The notes beneath the pieces were generated by a model. The model saw only the letters and a list, made by a program, of their open reading frames with translations. It did not search any database and was not told the DNA's origin. This document shows positions 1,531-19,346 of a stretch of 32,605 bases of DNA, one piece after another. The DNA comes from Alphaproteobacteria bacterium (lineage in GTDB: Bacteria > Pseudomonadota > Alphaproteobacteria > Rhodobacterales > Rhodobacteraceae), in assembly GCA_009908405.1 (NCBI GenBank), contig JAAAPG010000110.1, positions 1 through 32,605 on the forward strand, read 5' to 3'. The translations under genes were made by a program, and so were the position numbers. The first letter of the stretch is position 1, and every line of letters begins with the position of its first letter.

Positions 1531-1691
1531 GAGTGTTCCTCCCAGAAAGCGGGTCGCGGTCATGCGCCCCGGATGGAAAGGATGCGTGACAGGCTGCCGC
1601 AGTTCAAGAAAAACATTCGCATGTTCTCATGGAGTTGGTTTTGACGCCCTGCGTCGCGCGACTACTTTTAACCCATGGGAAAGGTGTTCTG

Positions 1692-1841
1692 ATGGCCAAG
1701 CATCCGAAGAAAGGCGATCTGCCGACCAAGACTTGCGCCACCTGCGGGCGCCCGTTCACATGGCGCAAGAAATGGGCCAGGGTCTGGGACGAGGTGCGCT
1801 ATTGTTCGGACCGGTGCCGGGGCGCGCGCAAAACTGCTTGA
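1692..1841 (+). CDS. DUF2256 small zinc-ribbon protein
   Basis: A 49-aa protein with a treble-clef-like cysteine pattern: [10 protein letters not shown] near residue 15 and Y-C-S-D-R-C near residue 38, so CxxC plus CxxxC, probably binding one Zn. The R-P-F-x-W-R-K-K-W segment and size match DUF2256 (about 45-60 aa). The start at 1692 is preceded by AAAGG at suitable spacing; the frame opens further upstream (1629) but that part is not family-like. From memory, DUF2256 genes are often found near cryptochrome/photolyase-family genes, and here one lies about 0.6 kb away. Function unknown; RNA, DNA or protein binding are all possible. Confidence 0.85.
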
Positions 1842-1842
1842 A

Positions 1843-1918
1843 GCATGTCGCGCGAAACTGGTTTCCGGTGTTGCGCAAAAAGTCATGCGATCATGAAATG
1901 TTAGAGCGCGACGCGCTC
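1843..1918. repeat. Intergenic palindromic repeat plus perfect hairpin between convergent genes
   Basis: The gap between DUF2256 and the AraC gene is filled with dyad symmetry. An outer pair GCATG (1843-1847) / CATGC (1884-1888) encloses GCGC ... GCGC and a central CTGGTTTCCGG. It is followed by the perfect palindrome GAGCGCG-A-CGCGCTC at 1904-1918, which overlaps the AraC stop codon. The GTCGCGC...TGGTTTCC...TTGCGC architecture resembles extragenic palindromes I recall from alphaproteobacterial genomes. It could act as a bidirectional terminator or mRNA-stabilising element; there is no clear T-run. Confidence 0.55.
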
Positions 1919-2735
1919 AGGCCCCGCGCGCCTTGCGGTAAAGCGACGGCGGCCGCCCGGTCGAGGCGGAGAAGGCGCGCGAGAAATACCCCGGTGTCGA
2001 GAAACCGAGTGTGCGCGCGATATCTTGCACCGGCACATCCGTGTCGGTCAACATGCGGCGGGCTTCGTAAATCCGGCGCTCTTGCAGCATTTGCAGCGCG
2101 CTGCGCCCGCAACTGGCGCGGCAGGCGCGGGTCAGATGCGTCGGCGTCACGCCAAGCGCCTGTGCGTAGTCGCTGACATTCAGGGCCGACCCGAATTCGC
2201 GTTCCAGAAGGGCTGTGTAGCGCGCGGTCAGCCGCTCGTTGGCATTGCGCGACGACAGGCCCCGCGGGCTGTCATCCCCCGCAGAGCTGCGCTGACGTTC
2301 CAGCCAGATCGCCAGCAGCCCGATCTGATGGCGCGCGGCGCGTTCGGCATAGGCTTGCCCGCCGTCCAGTTCGCGTTGAATGGCGTCAATGATCTGCGCG
2401 ACCTCCGCGTGTTGCGTGCTGTCGCGCAGCCGCAGGTGCATCGGCGTGTCGGGCAGGTCCAGCCCCACCGGGTCGCCCATATGCAGCGCCACGCCCTGAA
2501 CACGGCTCATGGCCTGGAACCCATACATCGTGCCGGGGGGTATGTAGACCGCATTATGCGGGTGAAAGCCGCGCGTGCTGCCGCCCAGCGTGATACGGCC
2601 TTGCCCGGAGGTGAACCAGAAAAACACCGGTTCGCGCAGGGCGCGCAGGGTTTCGAGTTGCCATTTCGGCGCCGAGGCAAGTTTCGAAACAGGAACGAGG
2701 CGCAGCCGTTTCGGGTGGTCTGGAATTCGTGTCAT
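1917..2735 (-). CDS. AraC family transcriptional regulator
   Basis: A 272-aa protein. The N-terminal half looks like the AraC cupin-type sensor (GQGRITLGGSTRGFHPHNAVYIPPGTMYGFQAM, residues ~45-80, has the x-H-x-x-N/IPPGT pattern of the AraC sensor barrel). The C-terminal ~100 residues form the two-HTH AraC/XylS domain: NVSDYAQALGVTPTHLTRACR (first HTH) and PVQDIARTLGFSTPGYFSRAF (second HTH with the family signature), ending in PPSLYRK. The effector is unknown. It lies downstream of miaA on the same strand, across 135 bp with no obvious terminator. Three CGTGAG-type half-sites sit 66-92 bp upstream and may be its operator. GGGGGA lies about 13 nt before the ATG, slightly far, so the exact start is not certain. 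Confidence 0.9.
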   Translation of the reverse strand: MTRIPDHPKRLRLVPVSKLASAPKWQLETLRALREPVFFWFTSGQGRITLGGSTRGFHPHNAVYIPPGTMYGFQAMSRVQGVALHMGDPVGLDLPDTPMHLRLRDSTQHAEVAQIIDAIQRELDGGQAYAERAARHQIGLLAIWLERQRSSAGDDSPRGLSSRNANERLTARYTALLEREFGSALNVSDYAQALGVTPTHLTRACRASCGRSALQMLQERRIYEARRMLTDTDVPVQDIARTLGFSTPGYFSRAFSASTGRPPSLYRKARGA

Positions 2736-2800
2736 GCGATGCTTGTTCCCCCTGATCCTGTCAAGATTAGGACAGCGATGTGGCAGGGGAAGCGGGAATC

Positions 2801-2827
2801 CTCACGCAACCGTGAGTCGCCCGTGAG
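2801..2827. promoter_or_regulatory. Candidate operator: three CGTGAG half-sites upstream of the AraC gene
   Basis: CTCACG (2801-2806), a 4-base spacer CAAC, then CGTGAG (2811-2816) make a perfect inverted repeat. A third copy, CGTGAG, is at 2822-2827, 11 bp after the second, so on the same helix face. The block lies in the 135-bp gap between miaA and the AraC-type gene, which is read leftwards from 2735. Tandem half-sites about one helical turn apart suit a dimeric activator. The assignment is inference from position and symmetry only. Confidence 0.4.
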
Positions 2828-2870
2828 TTTTACATGCAGCGTTGCAGTTGGGTGACTCTGCTCGCGGGGT

Positions 2871-3767
2871 CTATAAAAGTCGTGCCCAGTCGGACATGCG
2901 CGCGCGAAACCATGTCCGCTGGCGCTTGGCATATTGGCGCGTGGCAAGTGTTGCGGCGGCAACGGCATCTGCCAACGAGATGTGGCCTTGCAGATGCGCG
3001 ATCAGCTCTGGCGCGCCGATGGCCTTGGCCCATGGGGCGCGCGCGTCCCAGATCGGCAAGACCGCGCGCGCCTCGTCCATGGCGCCTTGGGCCAGCATGG
3101 CCTCGAATCGCGTGGCGATTCGCTGCGCCGACCATTCGGGCGCGGGCAGCATCACGAAAGCCGATGTCTTCGCCAGCGGCAACAGCGGCGGCGGTGTGTC
3201 GTCCTGCCACGCGGCCAGGCCCCGGCCCGTGGCGCGCTGCACCTCCCACGCGCGCTGCACGCGGGCGGGGTTGCGCGTGTCGATGCGGGCGGCGGTGTCG
3301 GGGTCGAGTTCGGCCAGAAGGGTCTCAAGCCCGGCCCGCGCCAGCAGCGCGTCGCCCTCGGCCCGGATGGCCGGGGGTGTGGGCGGAATGCGGGCAAGTC
3401 CTTCGGTCAGGGCGCGGAAATACAGCCCCGTGCCGCCAACGATCACCGGGTTGGGATGCTGCGCCAGCACGTCGTGCATCGCCCGCAGCCAATGGCCCAC
3501 CGACCAGTCCTGATCCGCGCCGACACAGCCATACAGCAGATGTGGCGCGCGCGTGCGGTCCTGCGCATCCGGGCGGGCGGTCAGAACCTGCCACATGCTG
3601 TAGACCTGCAACGCATCGGCATTGACGATGGTCCGCCCCTGCGACTCGGCCAGCGCCAGCGCCAGCGCGGATTTCCCGCTGGCTGTCGGACCGGCCAGCA
3701 GCACCGGACGGTCGAGCAGGGGAGGATTGCTGCGCAAAGCGGTCAGCACATCGGCAAATTCCGGCAT
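2871..3767 (-). CDS. miaA: tRNA dimethylallyltransferase MiaA
   Basis: A 298-aa enzyme that transfers the dimethylallyl group of DMAPP to N6 of A37 in tRNAs reading UNN codons (i6A37). The P-loop [10 protein letters not shown] is at residues ~25-34, with NADALQVY shortly after (the conserved D-S/A-x-Q-x-Y block that contacts substrate). [11 protein letters not shown] is the family signature, and the C-terminal [11 protein letters not shown] is the conserved tRNA-binding block. I chose Met at 3767 because GAGGG precedes it and the P-loop then falls at the usual distance; upstream in-frame Mets at 3821 and 3809 lack a good ribosome site. Length fits the family (~290-310 aa). Divergent from pyrH. 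Confidence 0.96.
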
Positions 3768-9733: not shown

Positions 9734-9810
9734 CGACTCCAAAATAATGCGGTAAGACGGGGCCCGAAATGCGCGGAATCTTTAGGATGCTGCCATCGCG
9801 CGAGGGGGGC

Positions 9811-12135
9811 ATGGCACAGCGCCTGCGCTTCTTCACTTTGATGGTTTCATGTTTGTTGTCAGTAAGTTCGTTTGCGGGCGTCACCTCGGCAGAGGCGCAG
9901 AGCTATCGTTTTTCGACCATCGAAATCGATGGGAATGTCCGTGTCGACGATTCTACGATCCTGAGCGTCGCCAGAATCGGCACCGGACAGTCTGTCAGCG
10001 CAGGGCAGATCAGCACGGCTTATGGCAATCTGTCGGCCTCGGGCCTGTTCGAAACGGTCGAACTGGAACCGCGGGGCAGTCGCCTTGTGATCCGCGTCAA
10101 GGAATTCCCTGTCATCGGTATCGTGAATTTCGAAGGCAACCGTCGAATCGACGATGATGTGCTGGCCGAATCCGTAGAGGTGCGGGCCGGGCGCGTTCTG
10201 TCGCCCGCCCAGGTCGAGGCCGATGCGCGTGCCATTGCCGAAGTCTACGCCGAACGGGGCCGCACCGCCGCGGAAGTGACGCCGCAGATCCTTCCGCGTG
10301 GAAACAACCGGGTCGATCTGGCGTTCGTGGTACGCGAGGGCGACGTGGTCGAGATCGAGCGCGTCTCTTTCGTCGGCAATCGCGCATTTTCCAATTACCG
10401 GCTGCGCAACGTGTTGAACACGAAGCAGGCAGGCGTGCTGCGCTGGCTGATCCAGCGGGACACGTTTGTCGCAGAGCGCATCGCACTGGACCGCCAGCTT
10501 CTGTCCGATTTCTACCAGGCGCGTGGCTATATCGACTTCGAAATCCTGTCGGTCACGCCGGAGCTGGCGCGCGAGCGCGACCGGTTCTTCCTGACATTCA
10601 ACCTGCGCGAGGGCGAACAATTTCGGTTTGGTGACGTGACGGTGGTCAGCGAAATCGACGGGATCGACGCGGCCGATTACGAGCGTGAATTGCGTGTGCG
10701 TGCGGGTGACATTTTCGCGCCGACCACGCTGGAGCGCAACATTGCCCGGATGGAAACTCTGGCAGAACGTCGTGGCTTGCGCTTCGTGCGCGCCGAGCCG
10801 CGCTTTACCCGCAATAACCGCGACCGCACCGTGGATGTCGAGTTCGCCATCGTCCGGGGGGACCGCGTCTTTGTCGAACGGATCGACATCCAGGGGAATA
10901 CCACCACCCGCGACGAGGTGATCCGCCGCCAGTTCCGGGTTGCCGAAGGCGATCCGCTGAACCCGCGCAAGATCCGCGAAGCGGCCGCGCGTATCGAGGC
11001 CTTGGGCTATTTCGCCGAGACCGATGTCGAACCGCGCCAAGGCTCGACACCCGATCAGGCGGTGGTCGATGTTGAAGTGGAAGAAACCACGACCGGGTCG
11101 CTGGGCTTTTCCGTCAGCTATTCGCGTGAGCAGGGCGCCGGTTTCGGGATTTCCTTTGCCGAGCAGAACTTTCTTGGTCGCGGGCAGCAGGTTGCGATCA
11201 GCCTGAACACCGTCAAGGGATCGCGCGACATTTCGGCGTCCATCACCGAGCCGGCGCTTCTGGGCCGCGATCTCGCGTACACGCTCAGCCTTGGCTACAA
11301 GGAAACATCGGATTTCCAGAATAGCAATTTCGACACCAAGGAAGCGTTCTTCAACAATTCGCTGGGGTTCCCGGTCAGCGAATTCGGACGCCTGACGCTG
11401 CGGCAGGGCTTGCAGGTTTCGTCGCTTGGCGGGCTACCGCCGACGGCGTCGGAAAGGCTGCTCGATGACCAGCGGGATGGACGCACCATAACCGGTACGC
11501 TGGGCTACACCTATGTCTACGACACCCGCGAGGACAGTGTTGACCCCAGCCGTGGTTGGATCTTCTCGCTGTCGCAGGACCTGGGTATCGGCAATGGACA
11601 GCGTCGTTTCTTCAAGACAGAAGCCCGCGCCGGGTATGAAATGGCCGTGTTCAACGAAGACGTGACACTCAAGGCCGATGGCCGGGTCGGTGCTTTGTAC
11701 ATGGCCAACGGGCGTTCGCGCTTCCGCGACCGCTTCCAGCTTGCCAGTGTCATGCGTGGTTTCGCGGCAGGTGATTCCGGGCCCCGGGACTTCGCGTCCG
11801 CGGAAGACGACATCCTGGGGGGCACGCGCTACGCGGTCGTGTCGCTGGAAGCGCAGTTTCCGCTTGGTCTGCCCGAAGAATACGGCCTGAGCGGCGGTGT
11901 GTTCGCCGATGTTGGCACGTTGTGGGGGGTTGATAATGCCGGTCGTCCGGGAATCAACCTGGTCGATGCAGCCGGGGAAAACTCTTCCGACCCGCATCTG
12001 CGCGCCACGCTCGGTGTGTCGTTGTTCTGGGACAGCCCCTTGGGTCCGCTGCGGTTCGATTTCTCGAAGCCGTTGAAAAAGCGCGACTATGACAAGGCGC
12101 AGAATTTCGACTTCTCGATCGTGTCCAGCTTCTGA
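9811..12135 (+). CDS. bamA: Outer membrane protein assembly factor BamA (Omp85)
   Basis: A 774-aa outer-membrane protein that folds and inserts beta-barrel proteins. N-terminal signal peptide (MAQRLRFFTLMVS to SAEAQ), about five POTRA repeats through residue ~410 (recurring patterns such as IEIDGNVRVDDSTI, VNFEGNRRIDDDV, VSFVGNRAFSNYRLR and IDIQGNTTTRDEVIRR), then the 16-strand barrel with the Omp85 motif VRGFAAGD-like MRGFAAGDSGPRD, and a terminal Phe (FDFSIVSSF), the barrel-recognition signal. The frame also opens at 9769; I prefer 9811, where AGGGGGG gives a strong ribosome site and the signal peptide starts at residue 1. Only a few bases separate it from skp. Confidence 0.96.
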   Translation: MAQRLRFFTLMVSCLLSVSSFAGVTSAEAQSYRFSTIEIDGNVRVDDSTILSVARIGTGQSVSAGQISTAYGNLSASGLFETVELEPRGSRLVIRVKEFPVIGIVNFEGNRRIDDDVLAESVEVRAGRVLSPAQVEADARAIAEVYAERGRTAAEVTPQILPRGNNRVDLAFVVREGDVVEIERVSFVGNRAFSNYRLRNVLNTKQAGVLRWLIQRDTFVAERIALDRQLLSDFYQARGYIDFEILSVTPELARERDRFFLTFNLREGEQFRFGDVTVVSEIDGIDAADYERELRVRAGDIFAPTTLERNIARMETLAERRGLRFVRAEPRFTRNNRDRTVDVEFAIVRGDRVFVERIDIQGNTTTRDEVIRRQFRVAEGDPLNPRKIREAAARIEALGYFAETDVEPRQGSTPDQAVVDVEVEETTTGSLGFSVSYSREQGAGFGISFAEQNFLGRGQQVAISLNTVKGSRDISASITEPALLGRDLAYTLSLGYKETSDFQNSNFDTKEAFFNNSLGFPVSEFGRLTLRQGLQVSSLGGLPPTASERLLDDQRDGRTITGTLGYTYVYDTREDSVDPSRGWIFSLSQDLGIGNGQRRFFKTEARAGYEMAVFNEDVTLKADGRVGALYMANGRSRFRDRFQLASVMRGFAAGDSGPRDFASAEDDILGGTRYAVVSLEAQFPLGLPEEYGLSGGVFADVGTLWGVDNAGRPGINLVDAAGENSSDPHLRATLGVSLFWDSPLGPLRFDFSKPLKKRDYDKAQNFDFSIVSSF

Positions 12136-12137
12136 GA

Positions 12138-12740
12138 ATGGTCGGGTTTCGGGCGTTCGTCGTGATTGTGGTTGCAGGGTTTTGCCCTGTGACCATGAGC
12201 AGCGCCCAGCCGCAGACCGGCTTTTCCCTGGGCGAGACCGTGGGCACCACCAACGGCCCCGGTCTGGTTCTGCGCAGTATCGACGAGGAACGACTGTTCC
12301 GCGAATCGCAGTTCGGGCAGCGTGTTCTTGGGGCGATAGACGCGGCTTCACGCGCGCTCGAGGACGAGAATGCTGCCCTCCTGGCCGAGCTGACCGATCG
12401 AGAGGAAGAGCTTACCGAGCTGCGCGATACGCTCGATGCCGAAGAATTCCGCGCGCAGGCCGAAGCCTTTGACCAGCGCGCCGAGATGATCCGCCAGGGA
12501 CAAGCGCAGAAGCTGGCCCGTTTCTCGCAATTCGAAGAGTCAGAGCGCCGGCGTTTCTTCGCGCAGACCGAGGATGTCTTGCGGCAGGTTCTGGAAGAGC
12601 AAGGTGCGCAGATCCTGATTGCCTCGGGCGCGGTGATCGTTGGTGTGCCGGAAATGGACATGACCGATGCGACGATTGCCGCGATAGATGCCGCGATCGG
12701 CGACGGGGGCGCGCCTCCCTTTCCCCTGACATTGCCATGA
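12138..12740 (+). CDS. skp: OmpH/Skp-family periplasmic chaperone
   Basis: A 200-aa protein with a signal peptide (VGFRAFVVIVVAGFCPV to SSAQ), a beta segment (LVLRSIDEERLFRESQFGQRVL) and a long charged, coiled-coil-prone stretch (residues ~75-150, rich in E, R, Q and A). It closes with DVLRQVLEEQGAQILIASGAVIVG, the Skp C-terminal beta part. Skp trimers carry unfolded outer-membrane proteins to BamA. The ATG lies two bases after the bamA stop, so the two are translationally linked. Sequence similarity in this family is low; the call rests on architecture and the bamA-skp-fabZ context. Confidence 0.85.
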   Translation: MVGFRAFVVIVVAGFCPVTMSSAQPQTGFSLGETVGTTNGPGLVLRSIDEERLFRESQFGQRVLGAIDAASRALEDENAALLAELTDREEELTELRDTLDAEEFRAQAEAFDQRAEMIRQGQAQKLARFSQFEESERRRFFAQTEDVLRQVLEEQGAQILIASGAVIVGVPEMDMTDATIAAIDAAIGDGGAPPFPLTLP

Positions 12741-12777
12741 GCCGGTCCATCCGGGCGACGCTTGCCAGTTGTTGCCC

Positions 12778-12796
12778 GCCTTGCTAAGCGCAAGGC
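12778..12796 (+). other. Hairpin between skp and fabZ
   Basis: GCCTTGC (12778-12784) and GCAAGGC (12790-12796) form a perfect 7-bp stem with a 5-base loop, ending 24 bp before the fabZ start. There is no T-run, so it is more likely an mRNA-processing or stability element, or a weak attenuator, than a terminator. Confidence 0.4.
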
Positions 12797-12820
12797 TGCA
12801 TTCGCTTGGAGAGGTCAGAT

Positions 12821-13291
12821 ATGACGGATAGTGCCCCACCCGCCGCAGAGGCCGACCTGGCCACGATCATGAAGATCATCCCGCACCGCTACCCGTTCCT
12901 GCTGGTGGACAAGGTGCGCGACGTGGTGGCGCGCGAAAGTGCCGTGGGCATCAAGAATGTCACCTTCAACGAGCCGCATTTCCAGGGCCATTTCCCGGGC
13001 GCGCCCATCATGCCCGGCGTGACCATTGTCGAAGCCATGGCGCAGACCGCCGCCGTGCTGGTTGGCCTGACCATCGGCTACGGTGAACAAGCCCCGCTGG
13101 TCTATTTCATGTCCATCGACAAGGCCAAGTTCCGCCGCAAGGTGGTGCCGGGCGATGTGTTGGAATTGCATGTGAAAGTGCTGCGCGGCTCGACGAAAAT
13201 CTGGAAGTTCGAGGGCACCGCAATGGTCGACGGTCAGATCGCCGCACAGGCCGAATTCGCGGCGATGATCGACGCCTCGGCCTCGGCATAA
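12821..13291 (+). CDS. fabZ: 3-hydroxyacyl-ACP dehydratase FabZ
   Basis: A 156-aa hotdog-fold enzyme dehydrating beta-hydroxyacyl-ACP in fatty acid synthesis. It competes with the lipid A branch (LpxA) for the same hydroxyacyl-ACP pool, which explains the clustering. Seen: [13 protein letters not shown], then [18 protein letters not shown] with the catalytic His in GHFPG, and VEAMAQ with the catalytic Glu. GAGAGG precedes ATG 12821; an in-frame TTG at 12806 is less likely. lpxA starts 10 bp after the stop. Confidence 0.97.
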
Positions 13292-13301
13292 GGGCGCACC
13301 C

Positions 13302-14102
13302 ATGTCAGGAATAGACCCAAGCGCAACGATTCACCCAATGGCGGTGGTGGAGGATGGCGCGCGGATCGGTGCGGGCTGCACCGTCGGCCCTTTTGCCACC
13401 ATCGGGCCAGAGGTCAGCCTGGGCGCGAATGTCACCGTCAAGCCCCATGCCCATGTCACCGGCTGGACGGATGTCGGTGAGGGCTGCACGGTCTTCTCCT
13501 TCGCGTCGGTCGGTGAAGTCCCGCAAGACCTGAAATACGCGGGTGAGCGCACGCGCCTTTTGGTCGGGCGCAACTGCCGCATTCGCGAAAACGCGACGCT
13601 GCATTGCGGGACCGAACAGGGGGGCGGGATCACGCGGGTCGGCGAGAACTGTCTTGTGATGGCGGGCGCGCATGTCGGTCATGACGCGCAGGTCGGCAAT
13701 AACGTGATCCTGGCGAATTACGCGGGCGTCGCAGGACATGTCGTGATCGAGGATAACGTGATCGTCGGCGCGCTGTCGGGCATTCACCAATTCGTCCGCA
13801 TCGGTGAAGGCGCGATCATCGGCGGGGTCAGCCGTGTTACGCATGACGTGATGCCCTTCGGCATGGTGGCCAATAACGATGGCACGCTGAACGGGCTGAA
13901 CCTGATCGGGCTGAAGCGTCGCGGCATGGCGCGCGATGATATCGCCGCGCTGCGCGCGGCGTATCGCACGCTGGCCGATCGCGATGTGCCCCTGGTGGAA
14001 GCGGCGCAAACCCTGGCCGACAGTGCAGAAAGCGAGGCCGTGCGCAAGCTCGCCGCGTTCTTCACCGACACGTCGGGCCGCAGCTTTTTGCGCCCGCAAT
14101 GA
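13302..14102 (+). CDS. lpxA: UDP-N-acetylglucosamine O-acyltransferase LpxA
   Basis: A 266-aa left-handed parallel beta-helix protein performing the first step of lipid A synthesis (3-hydroxyacyl transfer to UDP-GlcNAc). Hexapeptide repeats run from residue ~5 to ~190 (IHPMAVVEDGARIGAGCTV, VTVKPHAHVTG and so on). AHVGHDAQVGNNVILAN carries the catalytic His. PFGMVANNDG...GLNLIGLKRRG starts the helical C-terminal part. Its TGA overlaps the lpxI ATG by 4 bp (ATGA), indicating coupled translation. Confidence 0.97.
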   Translation: MSGIDPSATIHPMAVVEDGARIGAGCTVGPFATIGPEVSLGANVTVKPHAHVTGWTDVGEGCTVFSFASVGEVPQDLKYAGERTRLLVGRNCRIRENATLHCGTEQGGGITRVGENCLVMAGAHVGHDAQVGNNVILANYAGVAGHVVIEDNVIVGALSGIHQFVRIGEGAIIGGVSRVTHDVMPFGMVANNDGTLNGLNLIGLKRRGMARDDIAALRAAYRTLADRDVPLVEAAQTLADSAESEAVRKLAAFFTDTSGRSFLRPQ

Positions 14103-14914
14103 CCCGCACGGCGCTGATCGCGGGGCGGGGGGTCTTGCCCGAAATCGTCGCCGCGCGGTTGTCGCTGGAAGGCGCGCCGCCGGTGCTGGCGGAACTCGAG
14201 GGGTTCGAGAGCCTGTCGCTGGCGCGCCACGGGGTGGAACGCTTCCGACTGGAACGCCTTGTGCCTTTCCTGGACCGGCTGGTCGATCTGGGGGTAACCC
14301 GCGCGGTGTTTGCGGGCGGCGTGCATCGCCCGCGGCTGGACCCCGCGCTTCTGGACCCGGCCACGATGCAGCTTTTGCCGCGCATCATGGCGGCCATGGG
14401 GCAGGGGGACGATGGCGCATTGCGCGAGGTGATCGCGCTGATGGGCGAATGGGGCATCGACGTTGTCGGCGCGCAGGATATTTGCCCCGAATTGCTGCCC
14501 GATGCGGGCCAGCTTGGCAGCCACGTGCCCAATACGCAGGACCGTAAGGACATCGCGCGCGGGTTTGAAATATTGCAAACCATGGGCGCGGCGGATGTGG
14601 GGCAGGGCTGCTGCGTCGCGCGCGGCCAGTGTTTGGCGATGGAGGCGCTCCCCGGCACCGACGTGATGCTGGTGCACCTGGCCACGTTGCGCGGCGGCGC
14701 GCTGCCCGAAGGTGGCGTGTTCTGCAAAGCCCCGAAGCCCGCGCAGGACCGCCGCATCGATTTGCCCGCCTTGGGCGTGGCCACGGTCGATGCGGCCCAC
14801 AGGGCCGGTCTGCGCGGCATTGCGGTTCAGGCGGGCGGCGTGCTTATGATCGACGCGCAAGCCATGATCGCGCGCGCCGACGAACTGGGGCTGTTCCTGC
14901 TGGCAGAGCCATGA
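14099..14914 (+). CDS. lpxI: UDP-2,3-diacylglucosamine pyrophosphatase LpxI
   Basis: A 271-aa protein of the former DUF1009 family. LpxI hydrolyses UDP-2,3-diacylglucosamine to lipid X + UMP and replaces LpxH in alphaproteobacteria. Family blocks: N-terminal LIAGRGVLPEIVA, then AADVGQGCCVARGQCLAMEALPGTD (the C-terminal catalytic domain), KAPKPAQDRRIDLPALG with the conserved QD-x-R-x-DLP, and GLRGIAVQAGGVLM. It overlaps lpxA and lpxB by 4 bp each, so the three are translated as a chain; product and substrate channel directly into LpxB. Confidence 0.95.
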   Translation: MTRTALIAGRGVLPEIVAARLSLEGAPPVLAELEGFESLSLARHGVERFRLERLVPFLDRLVDLGVTRAVFAGGVHRPRLDPALLDPATMQLLPRIMAAMGQGDDGALREVIALMGEWGIDVVGAQDICPELLPDAGQLGSHVPNTQDRKDIARGFEILQTMGAADVGQGCCVARGQCLAMEALPGTDVMLVHLATLRGGALPEGGVFCKAPKPAQDRRIDLPALGVATVDAAHRAGLRGIAVQAGGVLMIDAQAMIARADELGLFLLAEP

Positions 14915-16065
14915 AGGTCTTCCTGATCGCGGGCGAACCGTCGGGCGACGCGCTGGGTGCCGCGCTGATGGCGGGGCTGGCCGATCTGGCGCCGGGTTGC
15001 GCATTCGCGGGTGTGGGCGGAGAGGGGATGACGGCGGCGGGTCTGAATTCACTCTTCCCCATGTCTGATCTGTCGGTTATGGGGCTGGCCGAAGTGCTGC
15101 CGCGTATCGCGCTCTTGCGCCGCCGCATCGCGCAGACCGCCCAGGCCATCACCGACACAAGGCCCGATCTGGTCGTGACCATCGACAGCCCCGATTTCTG
15201 CCTGCGCGTGTTGCGCAAGGCCCGCGCCGCGCGCCCCGATCTGCCGGTGGCGCATTACGTCGCGCCCTCGGTCTGGGCGTGGCGGCCAAGGCGGGCGGCG
15301 CGCATGGCGCCCTTGGTCGATCACGTTCTGGCGCTCTTGCCGTTCGAGCCGCCCTATATGCAGGAAGCGGGCATGTCCTGCGATTTCGTCGGGCACCCGG
15401 TCGTCGCCGTCCCCCGCGCGTCAGAGGCCGAGGCGCAGGCGATACGTCAATCGGACACGGTCGTTCTGGCGCTTCCCGGCTCGCGCGGGGGCGAGATCGC
15501 GCGGCTGGCCCCGCGCTTCGGGCAGGCTTTGGGGCTGGCGCTGCCACAGGGGGCGCAGGTGCTTGTGCCCACGGTGGCCGCGCAGGCCGACCACATGCGC
15601 GCGCAGGTGGCGGCATGGCCCATTCCGGCGCAGGTTTTGACGGACCCGGCCCAGAAGCGCGCGGCCTTCGGCGCGGCGGATGCGGCGCTGGCGGCGTCCG
15701 GCACGGTCAGCCTGGAGCTGGCGGCGAATGACACGCCCATGGTCATCGGCTACGACATGGCCTGGCTGACGCAGCGGATTGCCGAGCGTCTGGTCAAGCT
15801 GGACACGGTGACGCTGGTCAACTTGGTGTCCGATACCCGCGCGGTGCCTGAATACCTGGGACGTGCCTGCACGGCGCAGAACCTTGGGCAAGGCTTGCGC
15901 GACCTGCTCACCGACCCCGCCCGCCAAGCCGCCCAACGCGCGGCCATGCGCCTGACGATGGAGCGGTTAGGGCAGGGGGGCGACGCGCCGGGGCGCCGTG
16001 CGGCGGCGTCTTGCCTGGCCTTCATGGTTCGGAAAGCGGGTGGTGGTCCAGCACCAGCGCCTTGA
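14911..16065 (+). CDS. lpxB: Lipid-A-disaccharide synthase LpxB
   Basis: A 384-aa GT19 glycosyltransferase joining lipid X and UDP-diacylglucosamine into the lipid A disaccharide at the inner membrane. Seen: the N-terminal FLIAGEPSGDALGA, GGEGMTAAG, YVAPSVWAWRPRR, DFVGHPVV, LALPGSRGGEI and ASGTVSLELA. Start ATG 14911 overlaps the lpxI stop (ATGA); the frame is open further upstream only as a shadow of lpxI. The last ~14 codons overlap the 3' end of xerD on the other strand by 44 bp, leaving an unusual small Gly/Ala/Pro tail. Confidence 0.96.
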   Translation: MKVFLIAGEPSGDALGAALMAGLADLAPGCAFAGVGGEGMTAAGLNSLFPMSDLSVMGLAEVLPRIALLRRRIAQTAQAITDTRPDLVVTIDSPDFCLRVLRKARAARPDLPVAHYVAPSVWAWRPRRAARMAPLVDHVLALLPFEPPYMQEAGMSCDFVGHPVVAVPRASEAEAQAIRQSDTVVLALPGSRGGEIARLAPRFGQALGLALPQGAQVLVPTVAAQADHMRAQVAAWPIPAQVLTDPAQKRAAFGAADAALAASGTVSLELAANDTPMVIGYDMAWLTQRIAERLVKLDTVTLVNLVSDTRAVPEYLGRACTAQNLGQGLRDLLTDPARQAAQRAAMRLTMERLGQGGDAPGRRAAASCLAFMVRKAGGGPAPAP

Positions 16066-16951
16066 GGCGCTCTTCCAGCACATGGGTGTAAATTTCCGTG
16101 GTGCCGATATCGGCATGGCCCAGCAATGTCTGGATCGCGCGCAGATCGGCCCCGCCTTCCAGCAGATGCGTGGCAAAGGCGTGGCGCAGCACATGCGGGC
16201 TGACGCGCGCGGGGTCCAGCCCTGCCGTGATCGCCATCTCTTTCAGCGCCAGAAAGAACCCCACGCGGCTGAGGTGGCCGACCTTGCCGCGCGACGGAAA
16301 CAGCGCCTTGGGTTCGGGTCTGCGCGCGGCGCGCAGCGCGCTGGCCTGGCGGTCCCATTCGGCCAGCCACGCGACCAGGGCGTCGCGCGCGGGTTGTGAC
16401 AGCGGCACCATGCGGTCCTTGCCGCCCTTGCCGGTGACATGGATCATGCGCGGATCGCCCCGCACGGCGTTGACCGGCAGGCTGACCAATTCGGTCACGC
16501 GCAACCCGGTGGCGTATAGCAGTTCCAGCAGGCAGGTATTGCGCAGGCGGTCGGCTTCGGTCCGCCCGGTGCGGCGCGCAGCGTCCAGCAGCGCGGTCAC
16601 CTCGGATGGCGACAGGGTTTGCGGCAGCTTGGCCGCCTTGCCCGGCCCGGCGATGCGCGCGGCGGGGTCACTGTCGCGCCAGCCTTCGGCATAGGCAAAG
16701 CGGAACATCTGCCGGATCGACGCCAAGCGCCGCGCGCGGGTGGCGCGGGCCAACCCCTGCGCGTCGAGATCCATCAGGTAGTGTTCTATCCTGTCCTGCC
16801 CCAAGGATGCGAAATCCAGCCCCTTGCGGTCGCACCACCCTTGGAAATCACGCAGGTCGCGCCCATAGGCGGCCAAAGTGTTGCGCGCCGCGCCGGTTTC
16901 GGCGGCAGCGGCCTGCAAGAAGGTCGAGATCCAGCGCGCGCTGTCCGACAT
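16022..16951 (-). CDS. xerD: Tyrosine site-specific recombinase XerD
   Basis: A 309-aa tyrosine recombinase that, with XerC, resolves chromosome dimers at dif under FtsK. N-terminal SAM-like core-binding domain (residues ~1-90, with RNTLAAYGRDLRDFQGW). The catalytic domain has all active residues in order: Arg in TGLRVTEL, Lys in GKGGKDR, His-x-x-Arg in HVLRHAFATHLLE, His in LLGHADI and the nucleophile Tyr in EIYTHV. XerD rather than XerC is judged from overall sequence style and the Rhodobacterales context. The upstream gene's stop touches this start (TAGATG). No other integration genes or att-like sites are nearby, so this is the housekeeping recombinase. Confidence 0.93.
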   Translation of the reverse strand: MSDSARWISTFLQAAAAETGAARNTLAAYGRDLRDFQGWCDRKGLDFASLGQDRIEHYLMDLDAQGLARATRARRLASIRQMFRFAYAEGWRDSDPAARIAGPGKAAKLPQTLSPSEVTALLDAARRTGRTEADRLRNTCLLELLYATGLRVTELVSLPVNAVRGDPRMIHVTGKGGKDRMVPLSQPARDALVAWLAEWDRQASALRAARRPEPKALFPSRGKVGHLSRVGFFLALKEMAITAGLDPARVSPHVLRHAFATHLLEGGADLRAIQTLLGHADIGTTEIYTHVLEERLKALVLDHHPLSEP

Positions 16952-18523
16952 CTATCCGCGCCGGTCCAGCAGCAGCAGTTCCAGCGCGATCTGGCGCGCG
17001 TCCCGCTCCAGCCCCAGCGCCAGCAGCGCGGCCAGCCCGCGCTCTGTGGCCAGCGGATCGCCCTGTGTTGCATCCGCGATCGTGGCAAGGCTGTCCAGCA
17101 GCAGCCGACCCCGCTCGCCTTCCGCCAGCCACAGGCTTTGCGGCATTGGCAGGGTGTCATGACCAAACCCGGCCAGGATTGCGCCACCATAGCCAGACAC
17201 CGGCGTGTCGGGCAGGTCGGTGCCACTGGCCAAGGCCAATGCCAACCGGGCCGAGGCACTGGCCGGGGCGCGCTCTGCGGCAAGGTCCAGCCGTGTTTCG
17301 GCCAGCAACAGGATTTCCCATTGCATCCGCGCGCCGGGCCCGGTCAGATCGCGGTCGGCCAGCCTGTCGGCGAAAATGCGGGCGAAGGCGTTTTCCAGCT
17401 CCATCGCCTGGAACAAGGGCCACGCGGCGCGTAACGCACCGGCAACAGCGTTGTCGTCATCATCTTGCAAGGCGCTGTCCAGCCGTTGCACCGCGCGCAC
17501 CCGGTCCCACACCCCGCCAGAGGCCGCGGCGCGCCGTTGACTGTAAATGCCCATCAGTCGTTCCGGTTGCATGACCCCCATGCGCGTCAGCCGTTCGGCG
17601 GCGTCGATCTGGGCGCGCCAGCCGCTTGTGCCGCGCAGGTCGGCATGGGCGAAGGCCACCGGCAAGCTGCCGGTGCCAACCGGATCGCCCAGCGCTTCCA
17701 GCACGCGCCAGCCCATCGGGGTCAGATGCTGCGGCGGTGGCAGCGACAGTTCGACGTCTTCCTCTTCCAAAAAGCGGGTGAGCAAGGCGGCTTCGGCCCG
17801 GTCCAGCCCGCCAAGTGCGCGCGCCGCGCCCAAGGCGGCATGGGCGGTCTGCCATTCGCCGCGCCGGGCGAGGCAGAAAATGCGCGCGGCCTCGCCGCTC
17901 GCGCCGGCCAATTGTCCTTGCAGCCGCGCGCAGGCGCGGTCCTCTTCGCCCAGCAAAAGCGCGATATCGAAGGCCCGCGTGTTCAGCGCGGCGGTTTGCG
18001 CAGGCGCGGCGTCGATCAACTGGCTGGCCTGTTCCAGCGCGCCGATTTCGATCAGCTTGTCCAGCCGCGCCAGCAGCAAGCTGCCCGCCATGCCCGGATC
18101 GGCCAGATGCGGCGGCGCGAATTCCGCCGAAAGCACGCGCAGCATCAGCCGCTGTGCAGCCGGCACCATGTCCGGGTCCAGCGCGGCAATCGCTTCTGCC
18201 AAAAGCGGAACCGGGGTGTTTCCCCAAAGATCGCGCGGCAGACCGATGCGCGCGGCGGCAAACAGCCCGACGCTGTCGCGCGTCCTCTGTTCCAAAGGGC
18301 GCGCCACGATCGGCTCGGCACTGGCGCCGGGGTCGGGCAGGTCCCCCGGCGCCGTTGGCGACACCGGGGCAGGGGACGGCGCGCGCAACGGTGCGGACGG
18401 GCCCAAAGGCTGCGTCAACGCCTGTTCCAGCCAGTCGATGGCCGAGAGCGGCGTGCTTTGCTGGGCCGCACCCGCCACGGGTATGCAAAGCGCCAGGAAA
18501 ATGCCTGCCGCGCGCAGGATCAC
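16952..18523 (-). CDS. Secreted helical-repeat protein, unknown function (523 aa)
   Basis: Starts at GTG 18523 with GGAGG just upstream; the frame is open to 18760, but that part runs through the 44-aa ORF in another frame. Residues ~1-22 (VILRAAGIFLALCIPVAGAAQQ) are a signal peptide. Residues ~30-75 are Pro/Ala-rich, probably a flexible linker. The rest is almost all alpha-helical with Ala/Leu-rich amphipathic helices and short turns, like an alpha-solenoid of degenerate TPR/Sel1-type repeats (for example FAPPHLADPGMAGSLLLARL). I see no catalytic motif. It lies between the 44-aa membrane peptide (4-bp overlap) and xerD (stop directly against start), so the three share one mRNA. I recall similar genes next to xerD in Rhodobacterales. 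A periplasmic scaffold or envelope factor is possible. Confidence 0.8.
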   Translation of the reverse strand: MILRAAGIFLALCIPVAGAAQQSTPLSAIDWLEQALTQPLGPSAPLRAPSPAPVSPTAPGDLPDPGASAEPIVARPLEQRTRDSVGLFAAARIGLPRDLWGNTPVPLLAEAIAALDPDMVPAAQRLMLRVLSAEFAPPHLADPGMAGSLLLARLDKLIEIGALEQASQLIDAAPAQTAALNTRAFDIALLLGEEDRACARLQGQLAGASGEAARIFCLARRGEWQTAHAALGAARALGGLDRAEAALLTRFLEEEDVELSLPPPQHLTPMGWRVLEALGDPVGTGSLPVAFAHADLRGTSGWRAQIDAAERLTRMGVMQPERLMGIYSQRRAAASGGVWDRVRAVQRLDSALQDDDDNAVAGALRAAWPLFQAMELENAFARIFADRLADRDLTGPGARMQWEILLLAETRLDLAAERAPASASARLALALASGTDLPDTPVSGYGGAILAGFGHDTLPMPQSLWLAEGERGRLLLDSLATIADATQGDPLATERGLAALLALGLERDARQIALELLLLDRRG

Positions 18524-18654
18524 GCGGCCTCCAACTCTACGGGTTCGGACACCGGTGCGCGTTGCGGCGACATGTCCCCGATATAGGCATAGGCCACCAC
18601 GGCGATCGCCGCCAGCAGCACAAGGATAAGGACAAGTCGAAAAATATACTTCAT
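18520..18654 (-). CDS. 44-aa membrane-anchored peptide, unknown function
   Basis: An ORF read leftwards from ATG (18654-18652) to TGA (18520). The product is 44 residues: MKYIFR, a strongly hydrophobic helix (LVLILVLLAAIAVVAYAYIG, residues ~7-26), then an acidic periplasmic-looking tail (DMSPQRAPVSEPVELEAA). The topology predicts N-in, C-out. Its TGA overlaps the GTG start of the 523-aa gene (GTGA), a typical coupling overlap, which strongly supports translation. AACAGG precedes the ATG. First gene of the unit that leads to xerD. Confidence 0.7.
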   Translation of the reverse strand: MKYIFRLVLILVLLAAIAVVAYAYIGDMSPQRAPVSEPVELEAA

Positions 18655-18800
18655 GAACCTGTTCGTGCCTTCCGGTTGCCCCCTCATTGTCACGCGGCGC
18701 GTCTTGGGGGTTTTCCTTTCGTCCCGCGGGCAATATCACGATCCCGCAAGCGCAGGCCATGAAAACTTGGACCGGCGCAGATCACAAGGACGCATTCGGC

Positions 18801-19346
18801 ATGAAACTGCACAAGACCGTGGTTCTGGTCGGCATGATGGGCGCGGGCAAGACCGCGATCGGAAAGCATGTCGCGCAACTCCTGGGCGTGCCGTTCCGCG
18901 ATTCGGACGAGGCGATCGTCGCCGCCGCGCAAATGTCGATCCCGGAGATTTTCGCCCGCGACGGTGAGGCGTTCTTTCGCGCCCGAGAGGCAGAGGTGAT
19001 CGCCCGCCTGATGCGCAAATCTCCCGGTATATTGTCCGTGGGTGGCGGTGCGTTCCTGCGCGCCGAAACCCGCGCGCGCATCCACGAGCAGGGCGTGTCG
19101 GTCTGGTTGCGCGCCGATCTGGACCTGCTGTGGCAGCGCGTGCGCGCCAAGCCCACGCGGCCCTTGTTGCAGACCGACGATCCGCAGGGCACGCTCGCGC
19201 GCCTGCTGGCAGAGCGCACGCCCGATTACGCGCAGGCCGACCTGGTGGCCGATGCCGACCCGGCCTATTCCATCGCCAAGATGGCGCAAGCCGTGCTGGC
19301 GGAATTGGCCACGCGTCCCGATGTCCTGGAAGGATTCCAAGCATGA
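18801..19346 (+). CDS. aroK: Shikimate kinase AroK
   Basis: A 181-aa NMP-kinase-fold enzyme phosphorylating shikimate to shikimate-3-phosphate in aromatic amino acid synthesis. P-loop GMMGAGKTAIG at residues ~10-20; shikimate-binding FRDSDEAI; FFRAREAEVI; GGGAFLRAETR (the G-G-G substrate loop); LRADLDLLWQRV and KPTRPLLQ of the lid. I chose Met 18801 because the family normally begins only about 10 residues before the P-loop and AAGGA lies 10 bases upstream; in-frame Mets at 18759 and 18687 would give N-terminal extensions. ATGA overlap with aroB. Divergent from the xerD unit across ~145 bp. Confidence 0.93.
   Translation: MKLHKTVVLVGMMGAGKTAIGKHVAQLLGVPFRDSDEAIVAAAQMSIPEIFARDGEAFFRAREAEVIARLMRKSPGILSVGGGAFLRAETRARIHEQGVSVWLRADLDLLWQRVRAKPTRPLLQTDDPQGTLARLLAERTPDYAQADLVADADPAYSIAKMAQAVLAELATRPDVLEGFQA

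Follow-up and report, generated by a model that had tools for sequence, protein, structure and literature searches.

A 44-residue membrane protein and a predicted exported solenoid encoded by a conserved gene pair next to xerD in Alphaproteobacteria

Layout of the locus

The window, that is, the whole stretch of 32,605 nucleotides that was analysed (contig JAAAPG010000110.1, Rhodobacteraceae), carries on its reverse strand one tightly coupled run of three genes, PEP, SOL and xerD, which is divergent from aroK-aroB. PEP (18520–18654, reverse strand) encodes 44 residues with one transmembrane helix and is a predicted inner-membrane protein of N-in/C-out orientation; judged from hydrophobicity, the helix spans approximately residues 5–25 (18580–18642, reverse strand), and residues 26–44 (18523–18579, reverse strand) would form a periplasmic tail, which has the Rhodobacteraceae form DLSP...PVTLEVN. 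SOL (16952–18523, reverse strand) starts with GTG and encodes 523 residues of a predicted exported alpha-solenoid. The PEP stop and the SOL start have the 4 nt GTGA in common (18520–18523, reverse strand), and the stop codon TAG of SOL abuts the ATG of xerD without a gap. The coordinates, the overlap and the contact are all as an earlier note on this DNA had described them.

The third gene (16022–16951, reverse strand, 309 aa) encodes a genuine XerD-type tyrosine recombinase, which is above the cut-off for PF00589 (5e-42), PF02899 and NF001399 (2.7e-101) and scores 313.2 bits against the XerD equivalog TIGR02225, slightly below its cut-off of 329.6. On the other side of PEP stands the divergent aroK (18756–19346, forward strand; PF01202, NF010552), which may in fact begin at the ATG at 18801, and neither XerD nor AroK is unusual within its Pfam and NCBIfam families. 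Scans for promoters, terminators and Rfam families returned nothing. Converging with xerD, on the forward strand at 9769–16065, lie bamA, an ompH/skp-like gene, a 161-aa ORF, a hexapeptide UDP-GlcNAc acyltransferase gene of lpxA type, lpxI and lpxB; the ORF (12806–13291), which stands between the ompH/skp-like gene and the lpxA-type gene, could by its position be fabZ.

Fold of SOL and selection on PEP

The sequence of SOL begins with a signal peptide of ~20 residues (AGAA/QQ; 18464–18523, reverse strand), which is followed by the motif PLSAIDWL at the predicted mature N-terminus (18428–18451, reverse strand), and signal-like N-termini are found throughout the family. Prediction with AlphaFold2 gave an all-helical solenoid (residues 81–518; 16970–18283, reverse strand) with a mean pLDDT of 88.9 and a pTM of 0.83, in front of which stands a proline-rich linker (residues 38–80; 18284–18412, reverse strand) of low pLDDT that is predicted to be disordered. 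A SOL homolog, L113, modelled in tethered form with its PEP, showed the same class of fold, its core being mostly at pLDDT 91–99 with one block at 75. Hence we regard SOL as an alpha-solenoid with high predicted confidence, and the secreted helical-repeat protein that the earlier note had proposed, together with the structure prediction by which it was to be checked, is borne out at that level. Two cysteines, Cys198 (17930–17932, reverse strand) and Cys217 (17873–17875, reverse strand), do not vary in either the family or the class alignment and probably form a disulfide. Just after the predicted cleavage site, 35 of 104 class SOLs have a P-(I/V)-x-L-(F/I/L/V)-P-like motif, where shuffling of this region would lead one to expect 2.1, an enrichment which is descriptive because the motif was chosen after the sequences had been viewed.

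Searches of PEP and SOL against Pfam, NCBIfam and PDB sequences gave nothing significant, and no TPR/SEL1 family was found at E up to 1 (Pfam, NCBIfam) in SOL of the window or in any of eight class homologs. SOL resembles the SEL1, TPR and PPR solenoids as an all-helical, repeat-like superhelix and weakly matches the SEL-1 repeat protein 8sxq (E 0.076), but it differs from them in that no Pfam repeat family was detected in any member scanned and that fold searches of the PDB returned no match at E<0.001, the lowest E values being 0.012 and 0.007 (TM not above about 0.2). LbcA, the TPR lipoprotein adaptor of the protease CtpA in Pseudomonas aeruginosa (PDB 7rqf, 8sxf), appears in these weak matches at ranks 25 (E 0.065) and 41 (E 0.12), as one of few periplasmic proteins of bacteria there. 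It is, like SOL, an exported alpha-solenoid and is similar in size, with chains of 523–532 residues. The adaptor logic of LbcA is plausible for SOL, which might by analogy be the substrate or regulatory adaptor of a periplasmic protease or peptidoglycan enzyme, PEP marking the membrane site; the combination of a solenoid with a tethered N-terminal motif would be consistent with this, as would the lipobox of the SOL relatives in L185, L371 and L381. However, the LbcA fold matches are not significant (TM about 0.15–0.19) and come without a sequence match, the signal peptide of the window SOL has no lipobox cysteine, the SOL gene is coupled to that of a membrane protein of 44 residues, and no protease or hydrolase genes were seen as neighbours, and we consider such a role unlikely. 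The lipobox replaces the plain signal peptide at 1559–2596 (forward strand) in L371, 1532–2573 (forward strand) in L381 and 1662–3452 (reverse strand) in L185; the relatives in L371 and L381 are shortened (~347 aa) and lipoprotein-like, and match the profile in their N-terminal part only.

PEP is under purifying selection. In the genus sample of 23 loci, its pN/pS was 0.39 compared with 0.95 and 2.67 when the frame was shifted, and that of the transmembrane part was 0.35; NG86/JC estimates were 0.29 for dN and 1.25 for the partly saturated dS, and the resulting dN/dS was ~0.23. Moreover, the frame has exactly 44 codons in 23/23 same-genus loci and PEP is found upstream of SOL in 52/52 Rhodobacteraceae loci examined, thus PEP is no chance ORF, and the short frame, whose disruption in relatives the earlier note had named as a point against the pair, is intact in the relatives examined. 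PEP and SOL overlap in 81 of the 104 class loci that were scored, by exactly 20 nt in 70 of them, and do not overlap in the other 23, the SOL start having been chosen by signal-peptide likeness and distance. The frequent position of the SOL start within PEP is what favours the reading of PEP as a mere leader or translational-coupling cistron, whose C-terminal conservation is imposed by the ribosome-binding site and start of SOL inside it. We find this reading hardly credible, because the transmembrane part has the pN/pS of 0.35 given above, PEP outlives SOL, and the class-wide tail motif, W-(D/E)-I-P-(P/A)-P-x3-(V/I)-E-K-x-(I/L)-P, survives without the overlap (L111, L118, L120 and L127) and without SOL (L367 and L368), so that the start signals of SOL do not by themselves account for the motif. 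The ‘acidic outer tail’ previously ascribed to PEP holds for this genome, in which the tail has three E residues, but not class-wide, where the conserved feature is the W-(D/E)-I-P motif.

The tail invites comparison with the N-terminal region of TonB and TolA (D-box/R-box), since PEP likewise has a single N-terminal transmembrane helix and then a short proline-flanked periplasmic motif, and Escherichia coli TonB has a proline-flanked region resembling the PEP tail after its transmembrane helix. On this ground PEP might bind a periplasmic dimer of the ExbD/TolR type, as a TonB/TolA-like peptide reduced to its helix and a D-box-like tail. The D-box with ExbD and the analogous TolA box have been described (PMC10907165, PMC12905483), and the D-box pattern is proline-flanked with alternating hydrophobic and hydrophilic residues (PMC10907165). 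The Rhodobacteraceae tail PVTLEVN fits this pattern in part, but the class consensus VEKVIP departs from it, and none of the aligned PEP helices has a histidine in the spacing of the SHLS motif of the transmembrane helix, which is Ser-3x-His-6x-Leu-3x-Ser (PMC12905483). In addition, PEP is unlike TonB and TolA in having no linker and no C-terminal domain, and it has no profile match. The TonB-like D-box reading of the tail is therefore disfavoured, and we consider a role of PEP as such a ligand improbable.

Distribution of the genes and the position of xerD

SOL was present in 24/24 genomes of the genus sample, with the window's own genome included. Of 150 Rhodobacteraceae genomes, sampled at one per genus, 142 had SOL, and one further SOL was recovered when the eight negative genomes were searched with a profile. 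xerD follows SOL in the 52 Rhodobacteraceae loci except L049, which meets a contig end. SOL matches with one in-frame TGA occur in L023, G102, G185, G092 and G142, and these are possible pseudogenes or sequencing errors. Among 289 Alphaproteobacteria genomes, the Rhodobacteraceae SOL profile had matches in 100 and the class-level SOL profile in 188, and the PEP profile had matches in 220 at a limit of E 0.05, a figure that contains chance matches because this limit is loose. Outside Alphaproteobacteria, SOL matches in the phylum sample were confined to two genomes of one family (E 2–3e-4) and are probably due to chance.

The class locus set comprised 120 loci, of which 119 were readable upstream (L074 begins at a contig end), and PEP was upstream in 114 of these, in most by profile and in the rest by reading frames. 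The PEP match of L183 was weak and partial only, and PEP was not found beside SOL by profile or frame reading in L150, L160, L172 and L178. In almost all of the 120 loci with room, xerD is directly 3′ of SOL on the same strand, and in most of them aroK is upstream and divergent; xerD was not detected 3′ in, among others, L098, L101, L121, L185 and L093, partly because some of these end too soon. As a cross-check, a degenerate DNA pattern of the PEP tail was run on named species genomes and gave at least 119 stretches, a sample biased to canonical PEP tails because the stretches were picked by them. SOL was immediately 3′ in 100 of 102 stretches with room, the other two having a SOL match at a different offset, and xerD was found in 75/76 and aroK in 104/109 with room; the 80 matches listed were all labelled as Alphaproteobacteria or as unclassified Proteobacteria MAGs. 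The conservation of the trio across Rhodobacterales, which the earlier note had asked to be examined, is thus found and reaches far beyond Rhodobacterales.

Loci lacking one partner show how far the three genes can be separated. PEP stands alone 5′ of xerD without SOL in the Rhodobacteraceae genomes G160, G123, G141 and G043 and in G038, and occurs without SOL in further lineages (L366, L367, L368 and L372–L377). PEP-SOL occurs without an adjoining xerD in L156, L190, L191, L371 and L381, and PEP without any usual neighbour in L370 and L378; the neighbours of the displaced PEP-SOL loci, with identities judged by eye, gave no functional hint. On comparison of these exceptional loci, PEP is retained most persistently of the three and usually forms a unit with SOL, while xerD has long been their neighbour. 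PEP is not merely an anchor of SOL, because it survives the loss of SOL in several lineages. In the Rhodobacteraceae loci L315, L318, L319 and L316, SOL was not found and PEP is directly 5′ of xerD; in L317 (G068), PEP lies between aroK and xerD, which stand 2.9 kb apart, and SOL was not detected. PEP is extended by a proline-rich tail in L376 (1428–1812, reverse strand) and L322, which belong to family f26, and SOL was not found between aroK and xerD there.

Nearly every class locus with room keeps the gene order and the coupling to xerD, xerD is present in 75 of 76 loci among the PEP-tail matches from named genomes, and PEP is retained beside xerD after the loss of SOL. These observations are consistent with the idea that the trio is one system through which XerD-mediated dimer resolution is joined to the envelope or the divisome. 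Nevertheless, we judge this idea improbable. xerD is not near PEP-SOL in the five displaced loci, aroK is nearly as constant a neighbour as xerD, and therefore neighbourhood alone is no proof of function; elsewhere, xerD shares operons with unrelated genes, as in xerD-dsbC-recJ of E. coli. XerD and PEP/SOL would, moreover, act in different cell compartments. XerD is a cytoplasmic DNA recombinase, PEP has few cytoplasmic residues and SOL is predicted to be exported, so a direct contact of XerD with PEP or SOL is implausible. The link to chromosome-dimer resolution and cell division suggested in the earlier note is hence not upheld, since PEP-SOL persists away from xerD, PEP also persists without its usual neighbours and the predicted compartment of both is the envelope. 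On present evidence, xerD adjoins PEP-SOL as a neighbour and is not a functional component.

A proposed envelope module

The earlier note had also suggested, as a check, a structure prediction for the complex of the 44-aa peptide with the 523-aa protein. In the tethered AlphaFold2 model of L113, in which the PEP stop was read as glycine, residues 3–25 of PEP formed a helix with a pLDDT of about 91, and the tail had a pLDDT of 37–65 and was undocked on SOL, PEP being covered by 7 of the 63 alignment rows; docking of the tail on SOL is therefore not supported by this model. The distance-based co-evolution signal was also weak, with a PEP-SOL partial r of 0.215 given xerD compared with 0.128 for PEP-aroK. 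As observed by comparison of the sequences, the PEP and SOL genes stay together and usually overlap, and PEP is selected.

We tentatively propose, with slightly less than even confidence, that PEP-SOL is an ancient envelope module of Alphaproteobacteria, in which SOL would act in the periplasm as an adaptor or scaffold and PEP would be its partner in the inner membrane, with xerD outside their function. PEP would be anchored in the inner membrane and expose its short tail to the periplasm, and SOL would be exported and bind one partner through its tethered N-terminal motif and another through its solenoid. PEP may thereby link the activity of SOL to an inner-membrane complex, which PEP could also serve alone, and xerD would be co-expressed with the two. 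The fixed order aroK-aroB/PEP-SOL-xerD across the class speaks for this module, as do the wide distribution, the conserved 20-nt overlap, the selection on PEP, the joint retention of PEP and SOL away from xerD, the solenoid models and the enriched N-terminal motif of SOL. The SOL genes of L150, L160, L172 and L178, beside which no PEP was found, speak against it, as do the undocked tail, the survival of PEP after SOL loss, the weak co-evolution signal and the lack of a fold match at E<0.001. The earlier suspicion of an undescribed envelope pair with tight coupling, in which a bitopic peptide accompanies an exported helical-repeat protein, is supported, and the pair is retained far beyond Rhodobacterales with the short frame intact. 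It is possible, though we hold it with somewhat less confidence, that PEP/SOL is a class-defining and undescribed core envelope system, with the PEP of 44–46 residues as its conserved centre and the periplasmic solenoid as its usual but replaceable partner.

What is new here is two protein families and a gene pair, not a mechanism. Searches of the literature for the operon or its genes gave no relevant paper, and broader ones gave only unrelated or general Xer papers. Two unnamed families for which there is no family model occupy one fixed place in most of the Alphaproteobacteria sampled, a class to which the nearest relatives of mitochondria belong, as do photosynthetic bacteria and symbionts of animals and plants; thus it seems that a component of the cell envelope has escaped notice although it is widespread, which would point to unrecognised envelope biology in this class. 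A membrane protein of 44–46 residues that is conserved class-wide and overlaps its partner gene by 20 nt is easily missed by annotation.

The PEP/SOL pair occurs even in genomes near 1 Mb. In Paracoccus, aroB-aroK and the trio are carried in L386 (3026–5890) and L387 on replicons that are entered as plasmids and measure 1.46 and 2.24 Mb, one of which is typed as conjugative, and the gene order is taken from annotation only for the 1.46-Mb one. In Paracoccus ferrooxidans, the run is located on the 1.46-Mb plasmid pFER4 and is annotated as shikimate kinase, two hypothetical proteins and tyrosine recombinase.
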